A DNA stretch of 34,645 bases, taken from the NCBI GenBank assembly GCA_947571135.1, contig CANOWY010000014.1, positions 1-34,645 of the forward strand, written 5' to 3'. The notes under the pieces were generated by a model. It searched no databases and was not told the DNA's origin. It was given only the letters and a program-made list of their open reading frames with translations. Below, in pieces: positions 31,974-33,139 of this stretch (its first letter is position 1; each line of letters starts with the position of its first letter). This DNA comes from an uncultured Mycoplasmatota bacterium (lineage in GTDB: Bacteria; Bacillota_I; Bacilli_A; RF39; UBA660). The translations under genes and the position numbers were made by a program.

Positions 31974-32625
31974 ATGAATACAATAAAATCAATCGATTTA
32001 TGGACAGAACAGCATATTAACCATTATGAGTGTTTTAATGGAGCATTTGTGGATGGATTTGAAGAAGAAAAAATCCCTTTCGACGAATACAAAATTGTAA
32101 AGAATTGTAATTGTCTTATAGAGTATAACGATAAAAATATAAATATTAGCAATAAACACCATGCGATTGTATTTTATAAAGAAAAAAATCCTGTAAGACT
32201 TATGGTAGTGAATAAAGATACAGAAATCAATCATTGTATAGAAGTTGCACTAAACCAATATAGTGGGGGGGGCACTAAAAGATTTGTACCAAAGTTTAAA
32301 TATTCAATCTTCAGTTATTGATTTAAAAGAAACCCCAATTTTTAATCACGCTGACTTTAAAAATGAAATGGACGTTGGTTCTTGTGACCGTTGGAATCTT
32401 TTATATAGTATGTTAAAAGGAAGTTATACAGAAAGTGATACAAAGTATGGAAATTATGCAAGTGATAAGTATGAATTTAATCCAAATTTAGATATAAAGT
32501 ATGAACTTATAACAGACAATGAGAAATTTATAATTGAACACCATTGTGCTTTTATGAATGAAATCAAAACAAGAATTATTCCTATTCAAGATAATTCTAG
32601 TTTAACAGGTATCACAGAAAAATAA
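31974..32625 (+). pseudogene. Unknown protein split by a frameshift at a run of eight G (possible phase-variable gene)
   Basis: The first frame (31974-32321) reads MNTIKSIDLWTEQHINHYECF through IEVALNQYSGGG and then leaves its natural path, ending at 32321. The second frame begins at the G run and continues ALKDLYQSLNIQSSVIDLKE through ITEK at 32625. Removing one G from the eight at 32265-32272 joins them in frame as NQYSGG-ALKDLYQ, giving one protein of about 217 residues. No signal peptide or membrane helix is seen, and the family is not recognised. The ribosome binding site GTAGGG precedes the ATG. Either the gene is off-phase, broken, or miscalled in sequencing. Confidence 0.7.
32265..32272 (+). 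repeat. Homopolymer of eight G inside a coding region
   Basis: Eight consecutive G in a strongly AT-rich genome, exactly at the point where the coding frame changes. G/C tracts of this length are typical slipped-strand sites. Confidence 0.9.
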
Positions 32626-32636
32626 GAAGGTTGAAA

Positions 32637-33110
32637 ATGAAAAAATTTTTATTACTGAGTTTTATCTTACTTTTTCTGACTGGTTGTAGTAAAAAGGAAA
32701 ATGTATTAACAGGAAAAGATTTAATAAGACAAAATTGGATAGACCAAAAAGTAAAAGAAAATCATTTAAGTTTATATTACGAATTAGAAGATGGTACAAA
32801 ACTATATTCTTCTTTAAAACAAATAAAATATATAAATGATGAGGGAAAAGAAAAAGAACTGAAGAAAGAATTAAAATCCAAAAGGATTACTATGGAAGAT
32901 TTTGTGAAAAAAATGGAGGTTTATCGTGCTTCCAATGATGGAGGTTCGGTATACTTTGAAACAACAGAAAACCTTTCTAAAACAAAATTTTATCTTGCTT
33001 GGTGCAATAGTTTAGAAGGAAATGGTGGAATTAAAGATATTTTTATTGTAGAAGATAAAGAAAAAGTTTTAAAGTTCTGTGTTATTGAAAATGATGAGTA
33101 TTATGAGTGA
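32637..33110 (+). CDS. Lipoprotein of unknown function
   Basis: The start ATG (32637) lies six bases from AAGAAGG; a TTG two codons upstream is also possible. The signal peptide KFLLLSFILLFLTGC ends in a lipobox with Cys17, so the mature protein is lipid-anchored outside the membrane. The rest (about 140 residues) contains LSLYYELEDGTKLYSSLKQIKYIN, a charged helix, and GGSVYFETTENLSKTKFYLAWCNSLEGNGGIKDIFI, probably a compact beta-rich domain. It is not a family I can name. It starts 11 bases after the poly-G split gene and may share its transcript; a terminator follows immediately. Confidence 0.82.
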   Translation: MKKFLLLSFILLFLTGCSKKENVLTGKDLIRQNWIDQKVKENHLSLYYELEDGTKLYSSLKQIKYINDEGKEKELKKELKSKRITMEDFVKKMEVYRASNDGGSVYFETTENLSKTKFYLAWCNSLEGNGGIKDIFIVEDKEKVLKFCVIENDEYYE

Positions 33111-33112
33111 AT

Positions 33113-33139
33113 GTCATACAAAAATGTATGGCTTTTTTT
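33113..33139 (+). terminator. Rho-independent terminator after the lipoprotein gene
   Basis: GTCATACA (33113-33120) pairs with TGTATGGC (33125-33132), including a G-U pair, across AAAA, then seven T follow. Confidence 0.85.

Follow-up and report, generated by a model that had tools for sequence, protein, structure and literature searches.

The gene that starts at position 31974 of the window (the whole stretch of 34,645 nucleotides that was analysed) is interrupted by a run of eight guanines and is very probably a contingency locus that undergoes phase variation by slipped-strand mispairing, was assembled in the OFF state, and belongs to a genome-wide and genus-wide set of such tracts. Under this scenario, slipped-strand mispairing during replication would add or remove single Gs at 32265-32272, and the change in length would turn a protein of 216-217 aa ON (G7, G10) or, in the other length classes, OFF. 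The window tract would be a member of a set of 39 poly-G switches that also extends across the genus; these would act by shifting the reading frames of genes, including an approximately 21-copy, leader-anchored surface protein family assembled mostly OFF, and, at other tracts, by altering the distance between the -35 and -10 elements of promoters. If such slippage occurs in living cells, the switching would be reversible and might be of value to the fitness of these bacteria.

The G8 tract and the split gene

The features of this region are as follows (all on the + strand):
31974..32321, +, window gene in the OFF state (G8), 115 aa: 97 conserved residues at the N-terminus and a tail that is out of frame
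32265..32272, +, homopolymeric tract of eight Gs (GGGGGGGG), a candidate switch by slipped-strand mispairing
32263..32625, +, 3' part of the window gene in the other frame, 62-86% identical to homologues from sister species
32637..33110, +, lipoprotein gene, apparently in the same transcription unit as the window gene (LPAM_1 lipid attachment site, E 8e-4)
33113..33132, +, terminator-like hairpin with a T-run after the lipoprotein gene

The first-pass annotation placed a gene-splitting G8 run within 32255-32280, and we find it at 32265-32272: the frame that opens with the ATG at 31974 stops at 32321 after 115 aa, a second open frame spans 32263-32625, and homologues are intact at this point. 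The number of residues encoded after the tract depends on the length class, being 116 at G7 and G10, 15 at G8, and one at G6 and G9; that is, the frame is open at G7 and G10 and closed at G6, G8 and G9. The tract thus lies, as expected of a contingency locus, in a reading frame that other lengths (G7/G10) leave intact. The same annotation held that loss of one G restores a 217-residue protein. G7 indeed reopens the frame, but G10 does so as well, and the total product derived from the coordinates is 216 residues at G7 (217 codons including the stop) and 217 residues at G10; accordingly, the figure of 217 agrees with G10, or with G7 if the stop codon is included.

Homologues of the window gene were detected in four further genomes of the genus, so that the gene is present in 5 of the 22 genus genomes. 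Three of the four homologues consist of one uninterrupted ORF (213-219 aa) free of G runs; they can be aligned with the window gene to the left and right of the tract and show FDNKVL and similar residues opposite the serine, glycines and AL of the window sequence. In the fourth genome (G002), the gene is found on two contigs and the gap covers the tract site; judging from matching counts, L092 and L043 apparently lie in one and the same genome. Because intact, tract-free homologues of 213-219 aa exist in sister species, the window gene is real.

A scan of 84,980 species genomes identified 59 loci in uncultured gut Bacillota, including Candidatus Onthousia. Four of these homologues carry a G7 or G8 near residue 30, in frame in L062 (67% identity to the query) and out of frame in L086, L088 and L090 (58%, 58% and 49%, respectively), and other G8 runs are also present in the respective genomes. 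Runs of at least 7 number four in 32.7 kb of homologue sequence versus three in 378.8 kb of flanking sequence (P=0.001); the loci were collected by patterns unrelated to G runs, so this comparison of genes with flanks is independent of the window. None of the homologues examined has a tract at the position found in the window gene. Other members of the family are broken without a G tract, by an A8 frameshift (L082), a small deletion (L083), internal deletions (L094-L102) or in-frame stops (L060, L087, L093), which suggests that loss of the function of this gene is often tolerated or favoured.

Neither the intact 214-aa homologue L044 nor the window fragments gave a significant family match in Pfam, NCBIfam, PHROGs or PADLOC. 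The predicted structure is of good quality (pLDDT 89.8, pTM 0.88) and has no Foldseek match at E<=0.001 in PDB or BFVD (best Z 4.8); the weak matches to eL38, glyoxalase-like and NTF2-like folds were given no weight. The neighbourhood of the homologues is variable; a short-chain dehydrogenase is one of the two commonest neighbours (8 of 35 loci), along with a kinase-like protein that occurs equally often. Elsewhere in the genome, a G8 run splits a short-chain dehydrogenase gene and puts it out of frame (L021:7773-7780); its product is 52% identical to the dehydrogenase encoded directly upstream of homologue L048 and 42% identical to that of L045. The window protein and the short-chain dehydrogenase may work together, which we offer as a lead only. 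The product of the window gene (216-217 aa) is probably cytoplasmic; as to its role, the likeliest option, to which we attach little confidence, is a small accessory protein with a metabolic or modifying function that works with the dehydrogenase, and we would likewise only guess that it is switched to escape intermittent selection, for example, by phages or host factors.

The lipoprotein gene begins approximately 12 nt past the stop codon of the window gene. No terminator-like site was found between the two genes, and the sole one detected lies beyond the lipoprotein gene; given this arrangement, a polar effect of the OFF window gene on the lipoprotein gene is plausible.

The poly-G tracts of the genome and its relatives

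The genome that contains the window (1.45 Mb, 92.6% complete, 29% GC in the part read, draft of 62 contigs) harbours 39 distinct G/C runs of 8-10 (17 G8, 6 G9 and 16 G10; none longer), compared to 0.3-2.6 runs of at least 8 expected genome-wide under Markov models of order 1 to 4, so that the tracts are longer than chance allows for this composition, another property of contingency loci. The search for further G or C tracts that had been recommended for the window thus turned up many, both in reading frames and in promoter spacers. Contrary to the description of a G8 run as very rare in such AT-rich DNA, runs of this kind are not rare in this genome. Within the window itself, there are two overlapping G7 matches against 0.2 expected, a number reached in 4 of 100 shuffles. 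The counts of runs by length are 59 (length 5), 6 (6) and 3 (7) in 448 kb, and then 17, 6 and 16 (8, 9 and 10); the 448 kb were picked around tracts, with lengths 8-10 counted genome-wide and lengths 5-7 only in that part, and the excess at 8-10 survives tripling of the 5-7 counts.

The positions of the tracts are non-random, and four classes can be distinguished. Class A consists of approximately 21-23 copies of one leader in a surface protein family, with the tract located just after the ATG (double counting is possible for a few that are located at contig ends). The layout includes a ribosome-binding site, ATGAAAAAAGAAGAA..., CTCCCAACTTCAGGA..., the G tract, a membrane segment (KKILIGSIVGLLLVLGGITLYKTFALYEEKKEFNVLQGRIP or a variant), and extracellular parts that differ between the copies (L009, L010, L013-L020, L022, L024, L027, L029, L034-L036); one of these extracellular parts is an ALK/LTK glycine-rich domain (E 7e-32). 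Nearly all class A copies are in frame only at G9, and only two have G9, the others being G8 or G10; one third would be expected in frame at random lengths (P 0.007-0.013). The structural model of the L024 surface protein was too poor for use (pLDDT 35.7).

Class B includes six tracts (G8-G10) within the spacers of TTGACA-N16..19-TATAAT/TATAGT/TATGAT promoters, 32-47 nt ahead of a start codon; these six sister tracts place a homopolymer between the -35 and -10 elements, the arrangement of the fetA/porA type. Among the exact TTGACA-N14..21-TATAAT sites, 4 of 14 contain G9-G10 in the spacer, a fraction that is inflated by the choice of the sample around tracts. Class C comprises single genes, of which the window gene, the short-chain dehydrogenase and a DHH-type protein are out of frame and a CDP-alcohol phosphatidyltransferase is in frame; a tract is also present at the end of a glycosyltransferase-like gene. 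In class D, a G7-G10 tract precedes the stop codon by one or two codons in one protein family from three species (L032:9047 and 10169, L103, L115; 33-43% identity), and the member tested has no Pfam match.

Several other features of the window and of the tract regions were recorded. The ORF at 3-1103, cut by the contig start, is weakly FGE-sulfatase-like (E 3.5e-4, which fails the cut-off) and shares the motif MMKNTEWGAVAYL with the extracellular parts of a surface protein family of genome G011 (L112, L127); it is probably another member of such a tract-bearing surface family. The protein encoded at 8857-9888 matches the PADLOC candidate defence family PDC-S05 (3e-151), and that at 33228-34088 matches the candidate defence family PDC-S13 (6.5e-109) as well as BRO-N and phrog_15286. 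No further copies of two tract regions were found in viral contigs.

Every one of the 22 genus genomes contains G/C runs of this kind. Of 145 genomes sampled across the family, 105 gave one or more matches, some of them over 100 overlapping ones, and 40 gave none, so that the trait is patchy in the family. The G8 load is very uneven between genera of one family (G022-G164), ranging from 0 to approximately 190 overlapping matches per genome. Six relatives carry 2-60 tracts each, and 30 sampled loci fall into the same classes, with G10 being the commonest length; in the surface family of G008 and G018, it is the membrane segment, not the leader, that contains the tract. With many switch-like tracts both in the genome and in its relatives, the set has the scale of a multi-locus phasome (at least 10 loci). 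Paralogues can vary in tract length only: two surface-family copies of G008, L116 and L131, share identical flanks (68 nt upstream and 39 nt downstream of the tract) and carry G10 and G9, respectively, a pair that comes closest to observed slippage in our data. Two extreme runs, a 48-nt G run (G002:C10:10508-10555) and an interrupted long G run at a contig start (G168:C44:1-43), may be sequencing artefacts.

Alternative readings of the tract and the role of mismatch repair

The original suggestion of a candidate phase-variation switch gains strong, though indirect, support from the intact homologues, the 39 tracts, their switch-like sites, the genus-wide runs, the G7/G8 runs at another site in homologues of the window gene, and the G9/G10 copy pair. 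A decaying accessory gene could instead have gained a G by chance, in which case the frameshift would be fixed and no reversible switching would occur. Such decay is conceivable, given the sporadic occurrence of the gene in the genus and the several homologues that are truncated, deleted or frameshifted by means other than a G tract. However, a random frameshift makes no G8 in DNA of 29% GC, and there are 38 further tracts in the same length range at switch-like places; furthermore, the part of the gene past the shift remains 62-86% identical to the homologues, which argues that the gene has not decayed, and we consider a fixed frameshift unlikely. Runs recur at fixed sites among paralogues, within promoter spacers and across 22 separately assembled genomes, which makes it highly improbable that the split reflects a sequencing or assembly error, with G7 or G10 as the true length, even though the genome is a draft (62 contigs) in which several contig ends lie close to tracts of the repeated family; the tract itself would be real even with the length miscalled by one.

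Transcriptional slippage can arise at long homopolymers, and the frame downstream of the tract remains conserved; both facts would fit a slippery site for the polymerase or the ribosome, such that both proteins are produced from one DNA length. Programmed slippage of this kind leaves unexplained the promoter-spacer tracts, the spread of G8, G9 and G10 within one family, and the intact tract-free homologues, and we give it hardly any credence. Phase variation at the DNA level is the reading that we favour.

Both mutL and mutS are present in the genome, so there is no loss of mismatch repair that could account for a high rate of slippage, and this cause was ruled out. A G8 tract is located in the spacer of a TTGACA-N19-TATAGT promoter (L031:10537-10544; G000:C13:23536-23543), 32 nt upstream of co-directional genes that encode HD-like, yqeG-like and yqeH-like proteins, MutL and an ABC transporter. 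Conceivably, the poly-G set could be self-tuning: switching of the promoter upstream of mutL would create a reversible mutator state that sets the rate of all tracts, with few members of the surface family displayed at once. If so, phase variation at the promoter of the mutL gene run would switch mismatch repair itself. A conserved tract ahead of mutL was rejected because sister genomes with the identical gene order lack it; for this reason, the mutator idea remains speculative, and we regard it as quite unlikely.

Comparison with known phase-variable systems

The best-known on/off switches based on slippage at poly-G/C tracts are those of pathogens, for example, Campylobacter and Neisseria. 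Although the mechanism is already known, the literature searched contained no earlier multi-locus set from an uncultivated gut lineage and no paper on phase variation in the RF39 lineage. A 2025 review considers why multi-locus phase-variable genomes seem to be limited to pathogens a major open question and suggests that database bias underlies this apparent restriction (PMC11868660, section 8). Because the tracts described here are genus-wide and patchily distributed in a very large family, this question becomes testable on existing gut metagenome reads. The tracts also yield candidate surface and metabolic genes that are apparently switched in these bacteria, and serve as a warning that the annotation of metagenome assemblies may treat such switchable genes as pseudogenes.

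The closest parallels differ between the classes of tracts. Switching of C-terminal sequences by homopolymers has been reported in Helicobacter canadensis (PMC2823697); the class D tracts (L032, L103, L115), not the window gene, resemble this arrangement in that a homopolymer near the end of the frame changes the C-terminus, and differ from it in that the class D family has no Pfam match for the member tested. In Neisseria, fetA and porA are subject to transcriptional phase variation via a homopolymer between the -10 and -35 elements (PMC5320596). The sister tracts in promoters, as opposed to the window tract, similarly lie in sigma-70-type -35/-10 spacers, where the length of the homopolymer alters the spacing; unlike fetA and porA, they involve no fewer than six promoters close to the consensus in a single genome, all with poly-G and ahead of unrelated genes.

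The set as a whole is most readily compared with that of Campylobacter jejuni, which has AT-rich genomes with 12-29 G/C tracts of at least 7, switching rates of approximately 1 in 1000 divisions, and G10 as the commonest length in the assay (PMC4965091). The genome analysed here is likewise AT-rich and contains dozens of G/C tracts of at least 7, mostly in reading frames where a frameshift would set the ON or OFF state, and the lengths are mostly G8-G10, with G10 the commonest in the loci sampled from sister species. In contrast to C. jejuni, the present set belongs to another phylum, in an uncultivated gut Bacillota lineage; it further includes several tracts in promoter spacers and a family of approximately 21 copies that share one tract-bearing leader. 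A lineage that here shows no sign of pathogenicity possesses 39 G/C tracts of at least 8, more than the 12-29 of at least 7 reported for C. jejuni genomes.
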